Source: a virus. Taken from it: DNA of 27,288 bases. The DNA lies in the IMG/VR virus record IMGVR_UViG_3300031565_000293, positions 1-27,288 of that record, one strand, 5' to 3'. The translations under genes and the position numbers were made by a program. The notes below the pieces were generated by a model that saw nothing but the letters and a program-made list of their open reading frames with translations, did not search any database and was not told where the DNA came from. This document shows, piece by piece, positions 1 through 11,020 of the stretch (positions within the stretch are counted from its first letter, which is position 1; the number at the start of each line of letters is the position of its first letter).

Positions 1-323
1 GACCCGCTTCCGGCAAGAACACCTACGCCTCGGCACAAGGAACCTACGGGAACCAACTGTTTGAGACTCAGGCGCTTGCTACGAGTGGTGCCGTCGCTGT
101 TGGTGACGATCTGGTCTACACGACTGGAAATCAACTGGTTGCCTCTCGGAACGGCTACCTGATGATGCGCGTCACCACGCAAACCGGTGCAGCAATCTCG
201 CTGGACCTCGCCACCATCACTTCTGAAGTTGCCAACGGCGCGGCTGCTTCCACAACCCTTGGCATCCTGAAGATGCCGCCCGACGCGGAGCAATTCGAGT
301 TGGTCTACGACCAGCGCGTCTAA
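1..323 (+). CDS. Partial virion-type protein, C-terminal 106 residues
   Basis: Open from the left edge (first whole codon at base 3) to TAA at 321-323; the start lies outside the window. The visible 106 residues are rich in Gly, Ala, Thr and Val, with alternating hydrophobic stretches such as GAVAVGDDLVYTTGNQL, and end in FELVYDQRV. This suggests a beta-rich small virion protein. It lies 15 bp upstream of the major capsid gene, where tailed phages often encode a head decoration or stabilisation protein. That role is inferred from position only; no family was recognised with certainty. Confidence 0.6.
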   Translation, partial: PASGKNTYASAQGTYGNQLFETQALATSGAVAVGDDLVYTTGNQLVASRNGYLMMRVTTQTGAAISLDLATITSEVANGAAASTTLGILKMPPDAEQFELVYDQRV

Positions 324-338
324 AGGGAGGACTGAAAA

Positions 339-1214
339 ATGTCAGGAGTTAACAACGCCATCAAGCAAAGGCTCATCAGCGAGTACATCAAGACCCCCGG
401 TGGTCGTGCAAAGCTGGCTGCAAGCCTTACTCAACCGTTGCGTCTTCGACGCGACTACACCTCGGTCGGTCGTAAGACCTTCCTGGTGGAGCAGTTGCCC
501 GACGGAGCCTTGCCGATCTACGACAAGGACCCCGATGTCACCGCATTCGTGATTGGTGAGGAAGGCGAGAACATTCTCGCTATCACCAAGCCACGTCGAG
601 TGATCTTTCCGCTGTTTGAGATTGCCTCAAACCCGGAGATTCCATTAACACAAATTAAAGAACGTAGATTCGACCTCATTGAACGGGCTCAAGACCTTGC
701 GCGAGCAAGCATCCAGGCCGCCGAAGATGAGCGCGTGTTCGCCGTTCTGGACGCCATCGCAACCGCAGGGTTCGACAGCGTTCCTGGTGGAACCAACCCG
801 GACATCCCGGTAGTTGCGCCCATCTCTGGTGCGGTCTTGGCTGACGCATTCGCACTCATTGAGCGCCACGACCTTCGGGTTGCTCGCGTTTACATGAATG
901 CGCGTGACTACGCCGACATCAGGAAGTTTGGTCGAGATATCCTTGATATCGAAAGCCAAGCGACTCTGCTCAAGACTGGTTTGCAAGCTACCATCTGGGG
1001 AGCCCAAGTCATCACATCGCGCATCGTGCCCGCAGGTACGGTCTACGTGTGTTGCGAACCCGAAATGTTTGGCCGAATTCCGGTTCGCACTGAGCTGACC
1101 GTTCTTTCGGCAGATGATCCAAAGGCTCGTACCATCGGTTTCTCGGTCTTTGAGAACCTCGGTATTGGCGCGTACAACCCCAAGGGGTTGACCCGTTTGA
1201 CCGTTACTCGCTAG
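339..1214 (+). CDS. Major capsid protein, HK97-like fold (probable)
   Basis: A 291-residue protein that probably forms the capsid shell. The start is supported by a strong Shine-Dalgarno site GGGAGG at 325-330, 8 bp before ATG. The N-terminal ~35 residues are basic and helical-looking, and are followed by RRDYTSVGRKTFLVEQLPDG, a segment I associate with the capsid proteins of large phages. An E-loop-like beta segment, a long helix (about residues 105-130, ERAQDLARASIQAAEDER) and a C-terminal beta-rich part (VYMNARDYADI to GIGAYNPKG) fit the HK97 plan. The gene is followed at once by a strong terminator, as expected for a very highly expressed gene. Residues 20-30 carry P-x2-R-x2-L-x-A-x-L, the spacing also found in three other proteins of the window. 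Recognition is from memory of the family, not from a search. Confidence 0.8.
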   Translation: MSGVNNAIKQRLISEYIKTPGGRAKLAASLTQPLRLRRDYTSVGRKTFLVEQLPDGALPIYDKDPDVTAFVIGEEGENILAITKPRRVIFPLFEIASNPEIPLTQIKERRFDLIERAQDLARASIQAAEDERVFAVLDAIATAGFDSVPGGTNPDIPVVAPISGAVLADAFALIERHDLRVARVYMNARDYADIRKFGRDILDIESQATLLKTGLQATIWGAQVITSRIVPAGTVYVCCEPEMFGRIPVRTELTVLSADDPKARTIGFSVFENLGIGAYNPKGLTRLTVTR

Positions 1215-1234
1215 TAGCGACCGGTTTACGCAAG

Positions 1235-1271
1235 AACCCTCGTTCCTTCGGGAACGAGGGTTTTTGTTTTT
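1235..1271 (+). terminator. Rho-independent terminator after the capsid gene
   Basis: A perfect 12-bp stem (1235-1246 with 1251-1262, AACCCTCGTTCC against GGAACGAGGGTT) is closed by a TTCG tetraloop and runs into TTTTTGTTTTTG. It lies 20 bp after the capsid stop codon. UUCG-capped GC-rich stems followed by U-runs are the classic intrinsic terminator form. It separates the capsid transcript from the accessory island. Confidence 0.95.
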
Positions 1272-1294
1272 GTCCCACGCAAGATCCCGGTCAT

Positions 1295-1311
1295 CACACA
1301 TAATCTGTGTG
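1295..1311 (+). promoter_or_regulatory. Short palindrome CACACA-taatc-TGTGTG before the fusion gene
   Basis: A 6-bp inverted repeat (1295-1300 with 1306-1311) with a 5-nt AT-rich centre lies just upstream of the nuclease/methyltransferase ORF. It could be an operator for one of the HTH domains in that protein or a small RNA hairpin. Only the symmetry is seen; function is inferred. Confidence 0.3.
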
Positions 1312-1316
1312 TATTT

Positions 1317-3308
1317 ATGTCTTGCAGTTGTCCCAATATTTGTATATTTACGATGAGGATGACACTAAATGGGACAAACTCTCTAAAAACGCTGACGGCT
1401 AAGATTCTGCGGGAGCTTTACCTTGAGAAGCATCTGACGGAGAAGGAGATTGCTGAGCGGTACAACACGACCCAGGTGACCATAGGGAGGCGTCGGAAGA
1501 AGTGGGGCATTCCCACCCTTGGTAAGACGGGGCGCAAAACAGCGAGCCTCCTGCCGCTTTCAGAAGTGCAAAAGAGTCTTCTCGTGGGTTCGTTGCTTGG
1601 GGATGGGCACATGAAAGCTGTATCCCCGAAAACAGCGAGATTCATTGAGCGTCATTCAACAGCACAGGAGCCATACCTTCGTTGGAAGACGGAGATCCTA
1701 AGCAACTATGTGAGTTCATTTTATCCTGTCACGAAACGCGAAAAGGACGGACGGGAGTACCCAGGGGTCGAGATGGCTACGGTGACGTGTGAGGCTCTGC
1801 GTCCCTACTATGATCTGTTCTACGGGGGCCCTGAAGGATGCCGGGAGTTTCCATCAAACCTCGACAAGTTGCTCGATCCTCTGGCCCTTGCGGTGTGGTT
1901 TCTGGATGACGGGTCTTGTTCACGGTTCCACCCGACGATTTCGTTTGGTCTCAACCGTTTGAGCCTCAAGAGAGCCACTCGTGCTCTCCGCCGTCTTGGA
2001 CTTAAGCCTGAGATCAGCGGCAAGAAGGGGGAGACACAGACCATCCTGTTCCCTGGCCAAGCGGACAAGTTCTTTGAAGTAGTCGGGCCACACATCCCGA
2101 ACTGCATGGCTTACAAAAGACAGAAAAGCAGTGAACGGCGAGATCAAGACCGCAATGCCCGAAAGCTGACCCCAGATACGGCGCGCGAACTGTATGACGG
2201 AGGGATGTCGATTAGAGAGATTTCCGATGCCTATGGGGTAGGGCATTCGACAGTTCACCGACGTGTTCATGCCAAAGGCGAACCCAAACGGATGGGGCGT
2301 CCCCGAAAGGCGTACACACGACTAGCTGCGGAGGTTGCCTTGGAACGGTACGACTCCGCCCTTTGGCCCGGTCTCCCAGAAGAGGAGAAAGAAAAATGGG
2401 TTGAGGCGGTTCACGAGATACTGCGCAAAGCCCCTTTTCCAGCAACTCCACCCTGGACACAGGAACGAGCGCAGGTGGAGTTTGAAAAGCTTGTTGCCCT
2501 TGAAATGGCTGAGGATGACAAGACAATCCGACCCCAGAGTTACCGGGGCACCGTCTTTTGTCAGAGCTTTTTTCCACATCGGTACAAGAGTTCATGGAGA
2601 GGCATCAAATGCGCTCACGAGGCGTGGCATGACGGCAAGGATCTGCGAAAGGCCATCCGTTTCCAGTTCAAGCAGGGAGATCCTGTAGCCCCTCACAGGG
2701 TTCTCCGAGCGGTCACGATGCAGCACAGGACCCCAGGTGTGTTCCGTCCGGCTGTGGCCAAGTATCTGTACGAGACCTATTGCCCCCCAGGAGGGAGCAC
2801 TTGGGATCCTTGTGCGGGATGGGGAGGCCGTTTGATGGGAGCCGCCGCAGCCGGGGTCAAGTACATCGCAACGGAGATCGAGCCTGAAACGGTGGCAGGG
2901 AACCGGGCTTTGGCAAAAGTGTTGGGAGCAGATGCCACTTTGGTTCAAATGCCAGCAGAGAGCTTCAAGGCTCCAGCCGTTGATTTTGTGTTCACGTCGC
3001 CCCCGTATTTCGATGTGGAGCACTACGGGGTGAGTCCAGGGCAATCGTTTCGGTCCTACTCCGAGTTTGATAAGTGGGTTGAAGGCTTTTTACGGCCGGT
3101 GATCCAATCCGCGTTCGACGCCGCTCCGGTTTTGGCTCTAAACGTGGCTCAAATCCGAAAAAGGAAAGAAGTCATCGACCTTCCCTCCAAGGTGTTGGAG
3201 ATTGCCCAGGAAGTAGGGTTTACCCACGAGGTTACTTTGGAGATGCCTTTGTCGTCGTTGAACCGCAAGAACGCATCTGAGCCCATCCTTGTGTTCCGCA
3301 AGCCGTGA
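1317..3308 (+). CDS. HTH / LAGLIDADG nuclease / HTH / DNA methyltransferase fusion
   Basis: A 663-residue protein with four recognisable parts. Residues ~25-65 form a helix-turn-helix (LTEKEIAERYNTTQVTIGRR). Residues ~85-265 form a LAGLIDADG homing-endonuclease core of the LAGLIDADG_2 type, with motif one VGSLLGDGH (acid D96) and motif two AVWFLDDGS (D197/D198). Residues ~284-320 form a second HTH (MSIREISDAYGVGHSTVHRR) resembling the first. Residues ~340-663 form an amino-DNA methyltransferase with SAM motif I DPCAGWGGRL (from residue 497) and catalytic motif IV TSPPYF (S561-P-P-Y564), typical of N4-cytosine or N6-adenine enzymes. All key residues are intact. The start is uncertain: ATG 1317, 1353 and 1359 are in frame and none has a good Shine-Dalgarno site. 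No intein splice-junction residues are seen, so it appears to be one continuous enzyme. Confidence 0.85.
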   Translation: MSCSCPNICIFTMRMTLNGTNSLKTLTAKILRELYLEKHLTEKEIAERYNTTQVTIGRRRKKWGIPTLGKTGRKTASLLPLSEVQKSLLVGSLLGDGHMKAVSPKTARFIERHSTAQEPYLRWKTEILSNYVSSFYPVTKREKDGREYPGVEMATVTCEALRPYYDLFYGGPEGCREFPSNLDKLLDPLALAVWFLDDGSCSRFHPTISFGLNRLSLKRATRALRRLGLKPEISGKKGETQTILFPGQADKFFEVVGPHIPNCMAYKRQKSSERRDQDRNARKLTPDTARELYDGGMSIREISDAYGVGHSTVHRRVHAKGEPKRMGRPRKAYTRLAAEVALERYDSALWPGLPEEEKEKWVEAVHEILRKAPFPATPPWTQERAQVEFEKLVALEMAEDDKTIRPQSYRGTVFCQSFFPHRYKSSWRGIKCAHEAWHDGKDLRKAIRFQFKQGDPVAPHRVLRAVTMQHRTPGVFRPAVAKYLYETYCPPGGSTWDPCAGWGGRLMGAAAAGVKYIATEIEPETVAGNRALAKVLGADATLVQMPAESFKAPAVDFVFTSPPYFDVEHYGVSPGQSFRSYSEFDKWVEGFLRPVIQSAFDAAPVLALNVAQIRKRKEVIDLPSKVLEIAQEVGFTHEVTLEMPLSSLNRKNASEPILVFRKP

Positions 3309-3325
3309 GGGGTCGCGGGACTTTT

Positions 3326-3709
3326 CTAATTCTTGGGCTTCTTCGATATCCATTTGGAGAAATCATCCCCGTAGTACCAAGTGAGTTCTTCGCCCGCTTT
3401 GATGTTGCGTAAGGCGGAGAAGTCCAGGGTCTCACTCTCTTCGTTGAACACGAGGTTGGGCTTATCCGCATGGTTGATGTGCTTAGCCTTTCCTGTCCCC
3501 ATGACTTTCATGTTGCGACCCTCCTCTTCCACGTGGAGGATGTAGATGCTCTTGAAGCCACGAGTGATGTGTCCTTCGTAGGAGATGACGTACTCCCCTT
3601 TCTTGATGGCTTCTTTGGTGAAAAGCCCGGAGCCGTGGATGCCGGAGGAGCGCACTTCAACCTGTTTGGGTACGAGATGGGGAGGCTGAACAATGCGCCG
3701 GGCTGGCAT
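3326..3709 (-). CDS. SET-domain protein lysine methyltransferase
   Basis: A 127-residue protein that is little more than one complete SET domain. Seen in order are SSGIHGSGLFT (residues 21-31, the SAM-binding GxG segment), YEGH at 44-47, the hallmark INHADKPN (78-85, matching NHxxxPN), and GEELTWYYG (106-114, matching ELTxDY with catalytic Tyr candidates at 112-113). The SET family transfers methyl groups from SAM to lysine side chains of proteins. There are no pre-SET or post-SET cysteine clusters. The size is close to that of the small chlorella-virus vSET protein (about 119 residues). The gene is on the minus strand, convergent with the fusion gene (17 bp apart) and divergent from the hydrolase-like gene (64 bp). 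The substrate is unknown: host or phage nucleoid-like proteins, ribosomal proteins or capsid proteins are all possible. Confidence 0.9.
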   Translation of the reverse strand: MPARRIVQPPHLVPKQVEVRSSGIHGSGLFTKEAIKKGEYVISYEGHITRGFKSIYILHVEEEGRNMKVMGTGKAKHINHADKPNLVFNEESETLDFSALRNIKAGEELTWYYGDDFSKWISKKPKN

Positions 3710-3773
3710 GGCCTAGCTTTATGTAAAAACCACGAACATCGCAAGTAATCCTTCTATCCTGTTCCCTTGGTAG

Positions 3774-4307
3774 ATGTTGGTCGTAGCTCTCAATGGACTC
3801 CTGGGAAGCCGGGATAGACACCTCGATGTGACCGAGATCGTGGCGGACTCTTTGCGCCTCCTTCCTATCAGGGACCGTGTTGATGTGGTCAAAGGAAGAG
3901 GGGGAGCGGGTCCGGTTGCTTTCAACAAGCTCTACCGCCGTGTGAAGCCCTATGCGGACGGCAAGACCACTCTGCTCCTGGTAGGCAAGTCCTACGGTGG
4001 GCACTGGTGTAGGAGGCTCCTGTGGCGTCTGGCGGAACAGAATCTACTGGAGCGCTTCCATGCGGTTGGGATGGTGACGATTGACCCGGCCAACGCTTTG
4101 CACAAGCTTCAAAAGAAGATGAAGCAGATTCCCCATATCGCTCTCGCTACCAACATCCATCAGTACGGGAGCCGGTCTGGGTATCGCATGGGACCGCCCG
4201 CAACCAACATTGCGGTGGTGGCCAAACACGGGAACATCGAGATGGCTCCGTTGGTCACGAAGAAAATCGAAGATCTGGTCCTCTGGGGCCACGCGAGAAG
4301 GAAATAA
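3774..4307 (+). CDS. Small alpha/beta-hydrolase-like protein
   Basis: A 177-residue protein with a nucleophile elbow G71-K72-S73-Y74-G75-G76 preceded by a hydrophobic strand (TTLLLVG). Two further candidates fall in the right order for a Ser-Asp-His triad: D104 in MVTIDPAN and H152 in VVAKHGN. This pattern is typical of lipase/esterase-type alpha/beta hydrolases, although the protein is short for the fold and lacks an evident lid. There is no signal peptide. An in-frame stop immediately precedes the ATG, which fixes the upstream limit; there is no good Shine-Dalgarno site, and TTG at 3777 is an alternative. It ends 1 bp before the peptidase gene, so the two are probably co-transcribed and translationally coupled. 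The substrate is unknown. Confidence 0.6.
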   Translation: MLVVALNGLLGSRDRHLDVTEIVADSLRLLPIRDRVDVVKGRGGAGPVAFNKLYRRVKPYADGKTTLLLVGKSYGGHWCRRLLWRLAEQNLLERFHAVGMVTIDPANALHKLQKKMKQIPHIALATNIHQYGSRSGYRMGPPATNIAVVAKHGNIEMAPLVTKKIEDLVLWGHARRK

Positions 4308-4308
4308 C

Positions 4309-5058
4309 ATGTCTGAACCCATCAAGATGCGCAACGGTACGGAAACCCTAGACGGGCGGTTGGCCCGGTTGATCCAATTTGACGAACGCTCCCGTAAGTT
4401 CCCGGTCATGGCAACGGTGGGCACCAAAAAGAAACCCCGGAGCTACACTTGGAGGAACGACCAGTATTTCGATCAAGGTTCCGAGGGGGCCTGTGTTGGG
4501 TTCGCCCTGACCCACGAATTGACGGCCCGTCCGGCTGAAGTCCAGCATCTCAGTGCTGCTTTCGCCCGAGAAGAGGTTTACTGGGAAGCCCAGAAGATCG
4601 ATCCATGGGAAGGCGGCAGTTACCCTGGAGCGACTCCGCAGTATGAGGGCACAAGTGTCTTGGCTGGGGTCAAGATGCTGAAGACGCTAGGGTATATCGA
4701 CGGATACAAGTGGGCTTTTGGGCTCAACGACCTTGTGATGGCTGTGGGCTACGCAGGGCCGGCGGTACTGGGTTTGGCGTGGTACGAAGGCATGTTCGAC
4801 ACAGCCTCTTGTGGGCACCTCCATGTCACTGGAGAGATGGCTGGTGGTCACGCCATCCTGTGTAAAGGCGTGGATGTGAAGAACAAGACCTTCACGTTGC
4901 ACAACTCCTGGGGAGCTGACTGGGGGACCGGAGGGGATGCGCTCATTCATTGGGATGAGATGGGTCGACTTCTCGATGAACAGGGCGAAGCCGTGATCCC
5001 GACGGGCCGTCACAAGACTGGGCTACTAGGGACTCTCAAGAAACTCGTTGGCGGCTGA
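4309..5058 (+). CDS. Papain-like cysteine peptidase (C1 family)
   Basis: A 249-residue protein with the complete papain active site. Q56 (oxyanion hole) lies six residues before C62 in DQGSEGACVGFAL, the same Q-to-C spacing as in papain; H181 is in GGHAILCKGV and N199 in HNSWGADWG. The family hydrolyses peptide bonds. No signal peptide or classical inhibitory propeptide is seen, so it probably acts in the infected cell's cytoplasm or is packaged in the virion. The start at ATG 4309 is chosen because GAGAAGGAA lies just upstream and it follows the previous stop by one base; an in-frame ATG at 4210 would overlap the hydrolase-like gene by ~100 bp and adds an unrelated Arg/Trp-rich segment. Its place in the island behind the capsid gene allows a role in capsid maturation, but a host-directed role is equally possible. 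Confidence 0.85.
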   Translation: MSEPIKMRNGTETLDGRLARLIQFDERSRKFPVMATVGTKKKPRSYTWRNDQYFDQGSEGACVGFALTHELTARPAEVQHLSAAFAREEVYWEAQKIDPWEGGSYPGATPQYEGTSVLAGVKMLKTLGYIDGYKWAFGLNDLVMAVGYAGPAVLGLAWYEGMFDTASCGHLHVTGEMAGGHAILCKGVDVKNKTFTLHNSWGADWGTGGDALIHWDEMGRLLDEQGEAVIPTGRHKTGLLGTLKKLVGG

Positions 5059-5348
5059 ACCGTCCGAACACACCGGAGTCGCGCAGACATAAACGGGATA
5101 GGGGGTTCGGTCTTCAGGTGTGGAACACTTGGGGGCTAGGATCGGCTGTTCCACGGCCATTTGGCCCCATAGATCGATCCAACGCCGACTGTGCTCCGGG
5201 CGCTGGGACGCTCATATACAAACCCATAAGAAACTTTATGTTCCTGACATACTCTGGCGTCGATGGCGCAGCGCGGTGACAAGTCGGGTAGTTCCTCTAT
5301 AGGGGTGTCTTAGGCAGGGGTTCCTGGCGGAGCTTCTAAGCAGCCAAA
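5059..5348. other. 290-bp gap without a convincing gene; several small hairpins
   Basis: No ORF here has both a start signal and a convincing protein; the longest, 60 codons at 5120-5302, is basic, Trp/Arg-rich and has no ribosome-binding site. Structures seen: GTGGAACA at 5120-5127 pairs with TGTTCCAC at 5147-5154 (8 bp, 19-nt loop); GGCC-atTT-GGCC at 5155-5166; CATAA at 5225-5229 pairs with TTATG at 5236-5240 in a small AT-rich pocket; and CTCTATAGGGG at about 5295-5304. It may hold a promoter or a small RNA, or be decayed gene material. No tRNA could be folded. Confidence 0.5.
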
Positions 5349-6530
5349 ATGGAACAAAAACAACGATTGTCTTCAGCGATCCTCCGGGTTGCGTCCACCA
5401 ATCCTGAGTTTCGTAAAGCTTTGGTGGCTGAACTCAAGACCGCTCGGACGGAGTTTAGCGATGTTGCTCGTCAGGTTGCTCGCGAGTTGGGATCCCGGAT
5501 TGTCCCGGTGCCGTTCAACCGAGTGCTGGAACTCAAGAACTACCGAGATCCCAGGCTCACGCTTGATCCTGATGCGCCGGAGGTGGCCTATCTCATCAAG
5601 AACATCGAATACGGTGAAGGGACGACGATGTTCGACATCTCAGGATCCCCTGGGAACCTGGAGGTCATTATCGACGCCATCCTGGCTCCTTGTGTGGTGA
5701 AATCCAATGGGCGTAAAGCCATGTTGGTTCTGACTTACGATGGCCAGAGCAACCCGTTGAGCAGCCAAGCCTACGATGAAGATTACGACATCGAACCGTT
5801 CAAAGTGAGCGAGGTTGTTAATATGATTGAGGGCGCCGCGTCAGGTGTGGGTTGGGCTGACGAGGAAGCTAATATCCGGGCTGCCAGCGCGCCGGTCAGC
5901 GTCCTGACGCCTCCCAAGTTCGACGCGAACCAGTACCGGTATTTCAAAGGTCCCGGCAAGACGCTGATGAGGGTTTGGAGACAGCGTAAAGAGAACCCGA
6001 AGTGGAATCTCATCAACCGAGTGGTCGAACACTTTGAGGGCTACAAGTACCTTCGTGAGAAGCCCGGTTGGGAAGACCAAGAGCAGACCGTCTCGATCAT
6101 GGACGCTATGGACAAACTCATCAAGTACAGGGACCACCTGTACCCTGGTGGGAAACCCAAGCCTCCCAAGAAGAAATCCCCACGTGCGGTCTTTTTGGAG
6201 CAGATGGAGTACCCCGAGGTCAAAGCCCTCATCTCCAAGTTCAGCCGGATTTTCAAAGGCAAGCCCGCCGAGGCCGGACAGTTCGCTTACGACGTGTTGG
6301 AGGATGCGAACTTCCACCGGGATGGCCGCAACATGAACGTGGCGATGGCGGATTACTCTGGCACGACCCGAGTTGCCCCAAGTTCAGTAGCCCAGAGACT
6401 TGAATACAGCAGCACCGTGTTGCCTTTCGCTGTGGGCATCGTGGCTGGTGCCGGTGACAAACGTGGAGCCATGCAGATGCTCAAGACTTTCGTGCAGATG
6501 AACAAAGACTGGTACGTGGAGCAGAACTAA
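5349..6530 (+). CDS. Phage protein of unknown function with N-terminal tag motif
   Basis: A 393-residue protein not assigned to any family. Residues 10-32 form an amphipathic segment containing NPEFRKALVAEL, nearly repeated at the start of the protein at 8603 and at the C-terminus of the next gene product. The middle part (about 50-150) is mixed alpha/beta (DAPEVAYLIKNIEYGEG, MLVLTYDG). Residues ~225-290 are charged, with KPKPPKKKSPR near 272-282, and the C-terminal part (GQFAYDVLEDANFHRDGRN) looks helical. The start ATG follows a weak signal (GGCGGAG about 16 bp upstream). It is followed after 2 bp by the next gene, so they are probably one operon. A virion or capsid-associated role is inferred only from the shared tag and the neighbours. 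Confidence 0.7.
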   Translation: MEQKQRLSSAILRVASTNPEFRKALVAELKTARTEFSDVARQVARELGSRIVPVPFNRVLELKNYRDPRLTLDPDAPEVAYLIKNIEYGEGTTMFDISGSPGNLEVIIDAILAPCVVKSNGRKAMLVLTYDGQSNPLSSQAYDEDYDIEPFKVSEVVNMIEGAASGVGWADEEANIRAASAPVSVLTPPKFDANQYRYFKGPGKTLMRVWRQRKENPKWNLINRVVEHFEGYKYLREKPGWEDQEQTVSIMDAMDKLIKYRDHLYPGGKPKPPKKKSPRAVFLEQMEYPEVKALISKFSRIFKGKPAEAGQFAYDVLEDANFHRDGRNMNVAMADYSGTTRVAPSSVAQRLEYSSTVLPFAVGIVAGAGDKRGAMQMLKTFVQMNKDWYVEQN

Positions 6531-7516: not shown

Positions 7517-8185
7517 ATGGTTGCCGTCTTCGATCCCGCTCGTTGCTCCTGCATCGACAAAACTGAGAGCACGCAGATCTGGCGCGGCAATCTTCCGCTG
7601 AACAAGAACGGCGAGTTTGCTTACCACGAGATGGTTGTTGCTCTGGACATCGAGCCAGGGTGGCAGCTCATTGACGTGAGCCTCATCGACAACATCGAAG
7701 GGGCGGAACGCGATCAGTGGATGACCGAACTACTGACCTACGGTCTCCACCCCGTTATTTTCCCGTCTATCCCCAACACCCCTCCCCAGTTCAACCAACC
7801 TAACTGGGATCCTCGACGTTTGTTGGGGGATGGTGTCCATCTGAAAAACGGACTCGCACCCGGTAGCTGGGTTTGGTGGCAAATCGAGGGAGGGCACGAT
7901 GGGATCGTTCTCGGCCCCGAAACCAAGAGCTATAACTTCATCGGGCTCATCAAGTACATGGAGAAGCTCCGTAGCCTTGAAAACTCGGTGGTCTACATTC
8001 ATTGCATGAACGGTACGGACAGGACGGGAGCTGTCGTGGCTGCCTATGCCATCACGTACATGGACATGGATTTGGACCAAGCGATGGCGTTCGCCGATTC
8101 ACTCAAACCAGCAGGTGTGATGAACCCCGACTACCGGGCGTTGGTCAAAGCCTACTGGGAGTGGTTCGGTCACTTGGACCTGTAG
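7517..8185 (+). CDS. Tyrosine/dual-specificity phosphatase-like protein
   Basis: A 222-residue protein with the phosphatase loop IHC163MNGTDR169TG, an exact CX5R signature followed by the usual TG and a helix (AVVAAYAITYMDMDLDQAM). The family removes phosphate from tyrosine, Ser/Thr or phosphoinositides through a cysteinyl-phosphate intermediate. The general acid Asp usual upstream of the loop is not obvious; D133 in GGHDGIV is a candidate. There is no signal peptide or membrane segment, so cytoplasmic action is likely. The start ATG at 7517 lies 9 bp after the previous stop, with no clear Shine-Dalgarno site. The stop codon abuts that of the convergent GIY-YIG gene. Phosphatases of this type are uncommon in phages. 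Confidence 0.8.
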   Translation: MVAVFDPARCSCIDKTESTQIWRGNLPLNKNGEFAYHEMVVALDIEPGWQLIDVSLIDNIEGAERDQWMTELLTYGLHPVIFPSIPNTPPQFNQPNWDPRRLLGDGVHLKNGLAPGSWVWWQIEGGHDGIVLGPETKSYNFIGLIKYMEKLRSLENSVVYIHCMNGTDRTGAVVAAYAITYMDMDLDQAMAFADSLKPAGVMNPDYRALVKAYWEWFGHLDL

Positions 8186-10457: not shown

Positions 10458-10474
10458 GTTGCGTATAGTTGGCG

Positions 10475-11020
10475 ATGGCTCGTTCGTTCATCGTTACCCG
10501 CGCAGATCTGGAGGCGAGGTATCCCGATGTGGAGTTGGGTGACTTTGAGCCGACCCATGCTGCGCGTATCCGAGGCTACGAGCACTGGGACTTTGTAGAG
10601 CTGCGTCCCGAAGGTTCAGCCGGGGTCAACTACGGCTACGAGCCTGGTAAAGAGTCCCCGACCTACGCGGAGATCCCGAGTGGGAAGTGGCAGCACCTCA
10701 ACGCTGCGGGCATCGTTGAGTCCGACATCATTCGTTGGGATGAGAACTGGATTCCTTTGTACGAACGGGATGGTCACGTCTATTTTGTTGAGAGCGGTGA
10801 AGACGGTCCAATCAAGATCGGATGGTCACAAGATGTGGAACGTCGCATTGCAGAGTTGCAGGTTGCAAACGCGCACAAACTCAACCTCTTGGGCGTCGTT
10901 CCCGGCACGATGAAAAACGAGGGCGAGCTTCACGCAAAATTCGCTCACATCCGTATGGAAGCCGAATGGTTCCAAAATACGGAGGAAATACACGAGTACC
11001 TCCGAAAAAATGGACGGTGA
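10475..11020 (+). CDS. T5orf172/MUG113-type GIY-YIG superfamily protein
   Basis: A 181-residue protein. The C-terminal half (from about residue 101) is a T5orf172-like domain of the GIY-YIG superfamily: HVYFVESGEDGPIKIGWSQD, then VERRIAELQVAN, LLGVVPG, GELHAKFAH and EWFQNTEEI, all in the family's order. The N-terminal ~100 residues (MARSFIVTRADLEARYPDVE) are not recognised. Related domains occur as stand-alone phage nucleases and as tails of restriction-like proteins; DNA binding or cleavage is likely but not shown. TTG at 10469 is an alternative start two codons upstream. The end overlaps the next ORF by 11 bp. Confidence 0.75.
   Translation: MARSFIVTRADLEARYPDVELGDFEPTHAARIRGYEHWDFVELRPEGSAGVNYGYEPGKESPTYAEIPSGKWQHLNAAGIVESDIIRWDENWIPLYERDGHVYFVESGEDGPIKIGWSQDVERRIAELQVANAHKLNLLGVVPGTMKNEGELHAKFAHIRMEAEWFQNTEEIHEYLRKNGR

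Follow-up and report, generated by a model that had tools for sequence, protein, structure and literature searches.

The window analysed here is a 27,288-nucleotide stretch of viral DNA, positions 1 to 27,288 of IMG/VR record IMGVR_UViG_3300031565_000293. Near its start lies a major capsid protein-like gene of 291 aa (339..1214, plus strand), recognised through a weak Pfam Phage_capsid match and followed by a terminator-like hairpin (1230..1267, plus strand). Adjoining this gene is a plus-strand open reading frame (ORF) at 1317..3308, which runs uninterrupted for 663 residues and encodes, in order, a helix-turn-helix (HTH) segment, a two-motif LAGLIDADG core, a second HTH and a class I amino-methyltransferase. 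The first 18 residues are modelled with a pLDDT below 50, so the ATG at 1353 may be the true start of the gene.

Domain searches and structure prediction of the full protein both recover this architecture. The LAGLIDADG core (residues 67-269; 1515..2123, plus strand) contains a Pfam LAGLIDADG_2 match at residues 87-236 (E 6e-23), and motif conservation places its catalytic acids at D96 (1602-1604) and D197/D198 (1905-1910). Pfam finds HTH families at residues ~23-61 and ~282-319, one on each side of the core. The N-terminal HTH (residues 24-66; 1386..1514, plus strand) matches Sigma70_r4 below threshold and the second (residues 282-320; 2160..2276, plus strand) matches HTH_23 and HTH_7; each forms three helices in the model, and their mutual similarity is weak. 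The methyltransferase domain, delimited by a family HMM (residues 342-662; 2340..3302, plus strand), carries motif I, DPCAGWGGR, from position 2805 and the catalytic SPPY at 2997-3008, while Pfam N6_N4_Mtase matches residues 555-662 narrowly below the family cut-off (E 4.5e-5). All of the residues that the first-pass annotation had singled out in this frame (D96, D197/D198, D497-PCAGWGG and S561-PPY) carry the numbers it gave them.

The AlphaFold2 model of the protein, built from a 38-sequence alignment, has a mean pLDDT of 92. Its residues 67-269 resemble I-SceI (Z 24.0 over 198 residues) and I-WcaI (Z 22.5), and residues 394-663 resemble Trm11/TrmN-type amino-methyltransferases (Z ~18). The protein thus has the single-chain core, the two LAGLIDADG motifs and the catalytic acidic residues that characterise the LAGLIDADG endonuclease family. 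The catalytic motifs of nuclease and methyltransferase are intact in one chain, the arrangement of a single-chain restriction-modification enzyme.

Other genes in the window include a papain-like cysteine protease-like gene (4309-5058, plus strand) and a dual-specificity phosphatase-like gene (7517-8185, plus strand), both amid structural genes. A MUG113/T5orf172 (GIY-YIG-like) domain protein at 10469-11020 (plus strand) is possibly another homing-type nuclease.

The same domain order recurs in other phages. Alignment-based scans of IMG/VR, with the ORFs then annotated by HMM, yielded 40 ORFs carrying both LAGLIDADG and methyltransferase domains; about 30 of these are distinct ORFs whose methyltransferase domain is long. 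This recurrence, together with a GenBank homologue, excludes chance, misassembly or a sequencing error joining two genes, and with the intact ORF, the Pfam matches and the AlphaFold2 model it confirms the fusion with two flanking HTHs that had been read from the window. The homologue, from the 485-kb uncultured phage LR745208, was matched by tblastn over 89% of the 663-residue protein; it is 1229 aa long and has zinc-binding modules in addition to the methyltransferase and a pair of HTH-LAGLIDADG units, and its gene immediately follows the same capsid gene as in the window. A cellular origin was rejected because one scan of GTDB genomes yielded only three such fusions, all in phage-like context: two (L206 and L210) are preceded by the same capsid gene and the third (L231) lies among phage structural genes. 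The L231 fusion (1453-4795) occupies a different structural locus, on a contig binned as an archaeal MAG, and adjoins an ORF that resembles an intein fused to the last part of a structural gene.

Both halves of the fusion are maintained. Nearly all fused proteins retain the LAGLIDADG motifs LGD and DDG, so the suspicion that the nuclease core might be catalytically dead throughout the family can be set aside; the sole dead copy is the first of the two in LR745208, where N and R replace the catalytic D, and the second copy there is intact. The methyltransferase motifs DPC[AGS]G[YW]GGR (a pattern that includes DPCGGWGGR variants) and TSPPY are likewise intact in complete LAGLIDADG fusions, with the exception of L125, which has neither. 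In the three pairs in which both halves could be measured, dN/dS was 0.08-0.14 for the HTH and LAGLIDADG half and 0.05-0.09 for the methyltransferase half; both are under purifying selection. At L002 3990-7679 and L116 5887-9687 there are tandem LAGLIDADG units; the two copies of each branch from separate regions of the LAGLIDADG tree, which would fit the stacking of one element in front of another.

Most fusions lie just downstream of one near-invariant capsid gene, whose product is 88-100% identical across the best 80 IMG/VR loci. Elsewhere this slot is empty, holds LAGLIDADG alone, including genes of the HTH-core-HTH type, or holds a PD-(D/E)XK-like domain followed by a methyltransferase of the same family. 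The capsid query by itself recovered 61 capsid loci with sufficient flanking sequence; 31/61 had no element, 17/61 LAGLIDADG only, 10/61 the fusion and 3/61 another nuclease type with methyltransferase; a broader slot survey, unlike this count, was enriched by nuclease and methyltransferase queries. At two loci (L136 9006-12120 and L088 5030-6939) two or three successive LAGLIDADG ORFs follow the capsid gene, and one of those in L136 has GD at the second motif, where DD is normal. At a third (L158 8951-9829) a D12-class adenine methyltransferase stands alone in the slot.

A natural empty site is provided by locus L132, whose capsid protein was a 100% match in the scan and whose capsid gene DNA differs by ~10%. 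Window positions 1-1272 align to L132 1-1280, and similarity returns at window 3763 and L132 1325. The absent segment of ~2.49 kb (1273..3762) comprises the fusion gene and, on the minus strand, a SET-domain gene (3326-3709; Pfam PF00856, E 1.6e-12) that has no homologue among the ORFs of 205 fetched loci. The empty site and the slot survey show what is expected of a free-standing homing element, which lies between genes and is carried at one site by some relatives but missing from others that are otherwise collinear. In other pairs the backbone similarity often breaks off no more than a few bases from the capsid stop codon; L160 and L171, for example, are 97% identical up to a breakpoint near it. 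On other contigs the spacer past the stop codon varies with the downstream cassette, and such a non-conserved spacer points, if only indirectly, to the 3' end of the capsid gene as the target.

The history of the element is discordant with that of its flank, as expected of a mobile element. The capsid-gene tree requires at least 12 presence/absence changes, and 25 changes over all states. Distances among the nuclease halves and among the methyltransferase halves are closely correlated (Mantel r 0.95, 0/5000 permutations), whereas either half correlates with the adjoining capsid gene at r only 0.29-0.35, which indicates that the halves are transmitted together and are mobile with respect to the flank. 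Mobility of the element is well supported. The proposal of a homing-like element carrying its own methyltransferase is supported by its movement at a fixed slot, the selection on both halves and their co-inheritance.

Differences within the capsid gene itself crowd towards its 3' end. In close-relative pairs with different downstream cassettes, 85 differences fall in the last 90 nt against 34 expected; same-cassette control pairs are also in excess, more weakly (59 observed, 38 expected; Fisher p 0.013 between the two classes). In the pair L095/L149, 7/7 capsid-gene differences lie within these 90 nt. Crowding of this kind is the pattern that co-conversion would leave, with a control that is not clean.

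The methyltransferase belongs to a family whose members are mostly free-standing phage genes of ~330-390 aa, often with the motif DMSCGWGGR, and frequent in phages (~70 ORFs in this survey). In the window protein the methyltransferase begins at residue 342, its alignment to the family model running from model position 2; free-standing members start at, or within ~30 positions of, the model's start. Since both start near the same point, the nuclease was appended rather than inserted. An alternative raised at first, that a nuclease had invaded a methyltransferase gene between duplicated HTH modules, finds no support, as the LAGLIDADG unit is N-terminal to an unbroken methyltransferase domain and LAGLIDADG-only genes of the HTH-core-HTH type occupy the same slot. 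The unbroken domain likewise rules out an intein, which would lie inside a host coding sequence. A group I or II intron ORF is also rejected, as the capsid gene is uninterrupted and an Rfam search of window positions 1-6000 found nothing up to E 1.

For the most part the fused methyltransferases make up a subfamily of their own, marked by the motif I DPC[AGS]G[YW]GGR, and in the methyltransferase tree the free-standing and fused groups part with a single change, at weak support. The same subfamily is also joined to Vsr-like domains (L004, L011, L012) and to PD-(D/E)XK-like domains (L180, L178, L160, L029, L210). The Vsr-like fusions sit at loci other than the capsid slot. L011 and L012, labelled Vsr-like from a D...EAHGxQH motif read by eye (L012 also has a PHROG homing-endonuclease match), nest in the window's LAGLIDADG clade (SH-aLRT 96). 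L004 (LR756508; Pfam Vsr E 3e-6) has a long branch in the same tree, and its methyltransferase, with SIPY at the motif, may be inactive. The PD-(D/E)XK-like fusions form a clade of their own. Their nuclease-like part resembles NhoI (Z 10.4) and the homing endonuclease I-Ssp6803I (Z 10.1) in a weak model (pLDDT 60); it has no acidic residue ahead of its VK/VR pair, so that the catalytic acid seems to be missing and cleavage is not claimed. The placement of these fusions in the tree implies that the nuclease partner changed at least once, or that the domains joined independently.

The fusion is probably a free-standing (intergenic) homing-endonuclease element. In a mixed infection, the nuclease would cut the co-infecting phage's allele near the 3' end of the capsid gene, and repair off the donor would bring in the element together with its leader. 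The methyltransferase would, less certainly, modify the same or an overlapping site and so spare the element's own genome and its copies. A target-protecting methyltransferase is suggested because an element inserted downstream of the stop codon would not disrupt a cut site within the capsid gene. That the added domain has this putative role, protection of an unbroken target, stands a little short of an even chance, and the target shared by nuclease and methyltransferase is itself inferred. For the reading as a whole, a free-standing homing element of mostly huge phages whose methyltransferase spares the same or an overlapping site, the chances appear evenly divided.

The strongest competitor, unlikely but of real weight, is that the methyltransferase is useful cargo: the LAGLIDADG part would mobilise the gene, and a methyltransferase of unrelated specificity would shield phage DNA from host restriction and pay for the element's keep, the fusion merely ensuring co-transfer. 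Since the free-standing family is so common in phages, the methyltransferase may serve anti-restriction, and the D12-class enzyme alone in L158 shows a methyltransferase filling the same slot by itself. The LAGLIDADG-only elements, which share the slot and do without a methyltransferase, keep this explanation alive and indicate that protection by methylation is not obligatory. Against it, the fused methyltransferases are largely a subfamily apart, and their pairing with several nuclease types suggests that the joined domains work together. The two halves also co-diverge closely, which fits matched specificity but is no proof of it.

An improbable alternative is that the fusion is a phage-borne single-chain restriction-modification system of type IIG/IIC-like organisation with a LAGLIDADG nuclease, acting chiefly to exclude competing phages rather than to home. 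Type IIC enzymes, too, hold nuclease and methyltransferase in one chain (PMC3384240). There are also weak matches to PADLOC type II methyltransferase models, and the PD-(D/E)XK-like version is similar to NhoI and PvuII. However, LAGLIDADG enzymes recognise long, rare sites, which suit general restriction poorly; a fixed position next to a gene that hardly varies, and a mosaic of gain and loss, fit homing, and a separate specificity subunit was not seen. That both domains are inert or DNA-binding only, or that the frame was misassembled or is a remnant in decay, as isolated degenerate cases such as L125 and the first LAGLIDADG copy of LR745208 might suggest, is very hard to credit given ~30 distinct intact fusions, low dN/dS and a pLDDT of 92.

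The usual explanation of how a homing enzyme spares its own genome is that the target there has been destroyed by insertion or differs in sequence; restriction systems spare theirs by methylation. The homing element favoured above may combine the two. Tentatively, and with somewhat less than an even chance, it is a hybrid of homing and restriction-modification: a selfish element cutting a conserved site in the capsid gene of rivals, preserving that site in its own genome by methylation, and using a methyltransferase that has paired with several nuclease folds (LAGLIDADG, Vsr-like and PD-(D/E)XK-like). If true, it would link homing endonucleases to restriction-modification systems as an intermediate protected by methylation. 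The methyltransferase partner would explain how a nearly invariant gene can be targeted without being broken, and the element may shield its own DNA and cut that of rival phages. A widespread homing nuclease-methyltransferase family at one slot in huge phages would make the proposed link between homing and restriction directly testable, and it offers ready-paired nuclease and methyltransferase modules.

A comparison with known systems places the element between several of them. It shares with the single-chain LAGLIDADG enzymes I-SceI and I-WcaI the same fold over ~198 residues and the two acidic motifs; unlike the window fusion, these enzymes are intron-encoded and have neither HTH flanks nor a methyltransferase domain. 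Like free-standing phage homing endonucleases, it is intergenic, lies by an essential conserved gene, is patchy among relatives and joins DNA-binding modules to a nuclease. The T4 seg and mob genes are of this kind, but they encode GIY-YIG or HNH enzymes rather than LAGLIDADG (PMC2988022), and T5orf172/HNH homing genes occur near capsid and terminase genes (PMC10448857). The main text of these two papers contains no word starting with 'methyl'. No description of a LAGLIDADG-methyltransferase fusion was found in the open-access literature, a coverage that leaves subscription papers and preprints largely outside. On that basis, which does not prove prior absence, the fusion appears to be a form of free-standing phage homing element not previously described, and possibly a homing/restriction-modification hybrid.

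Other systems bring a nuclease and a methyltransferase together by different routes. Homing elements (an intein, LAGLIDADG, ShiLan) have inserted inside phage methylase genes (PMC9957025, PMC11855218), so that there too one phage gene yields a LAGLIDADG nuclease and a DNA methylase. Those insertions split the invaded methylase, whereas in the window the nuclease is appended N-terminally, the methyltransferase is unbroken and the unit moves together. Fusions of a GIY-YIG domain with a methyltransferase in Lactobacillales likewise join a predicted nuclease to an amino-methyltransferase (PMC1564403), but they are bacterial, use different nuclease and methyltransferase families, not LAGLIDADG, and are interpreted as a hypothesis; the same paper likened homing enzymes, also as a hypothesis, to restriction-modification systems guarded by insertion rather than methylation. 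The type IIC/IIG enzymes TspGWI, TspDTI and MmeI carry nuclease and methyltransferase in one chain (PMC2700111, PMC3384240), and the self-protection by methylation proposed here is that of such single-chain restriction-modification enzymes. They are built of Type I-like domains in tandem, in contrast to the window gene, which has a LAGLIDADG nuclease, a fixed slot in the phage genome and a mobile distribution.
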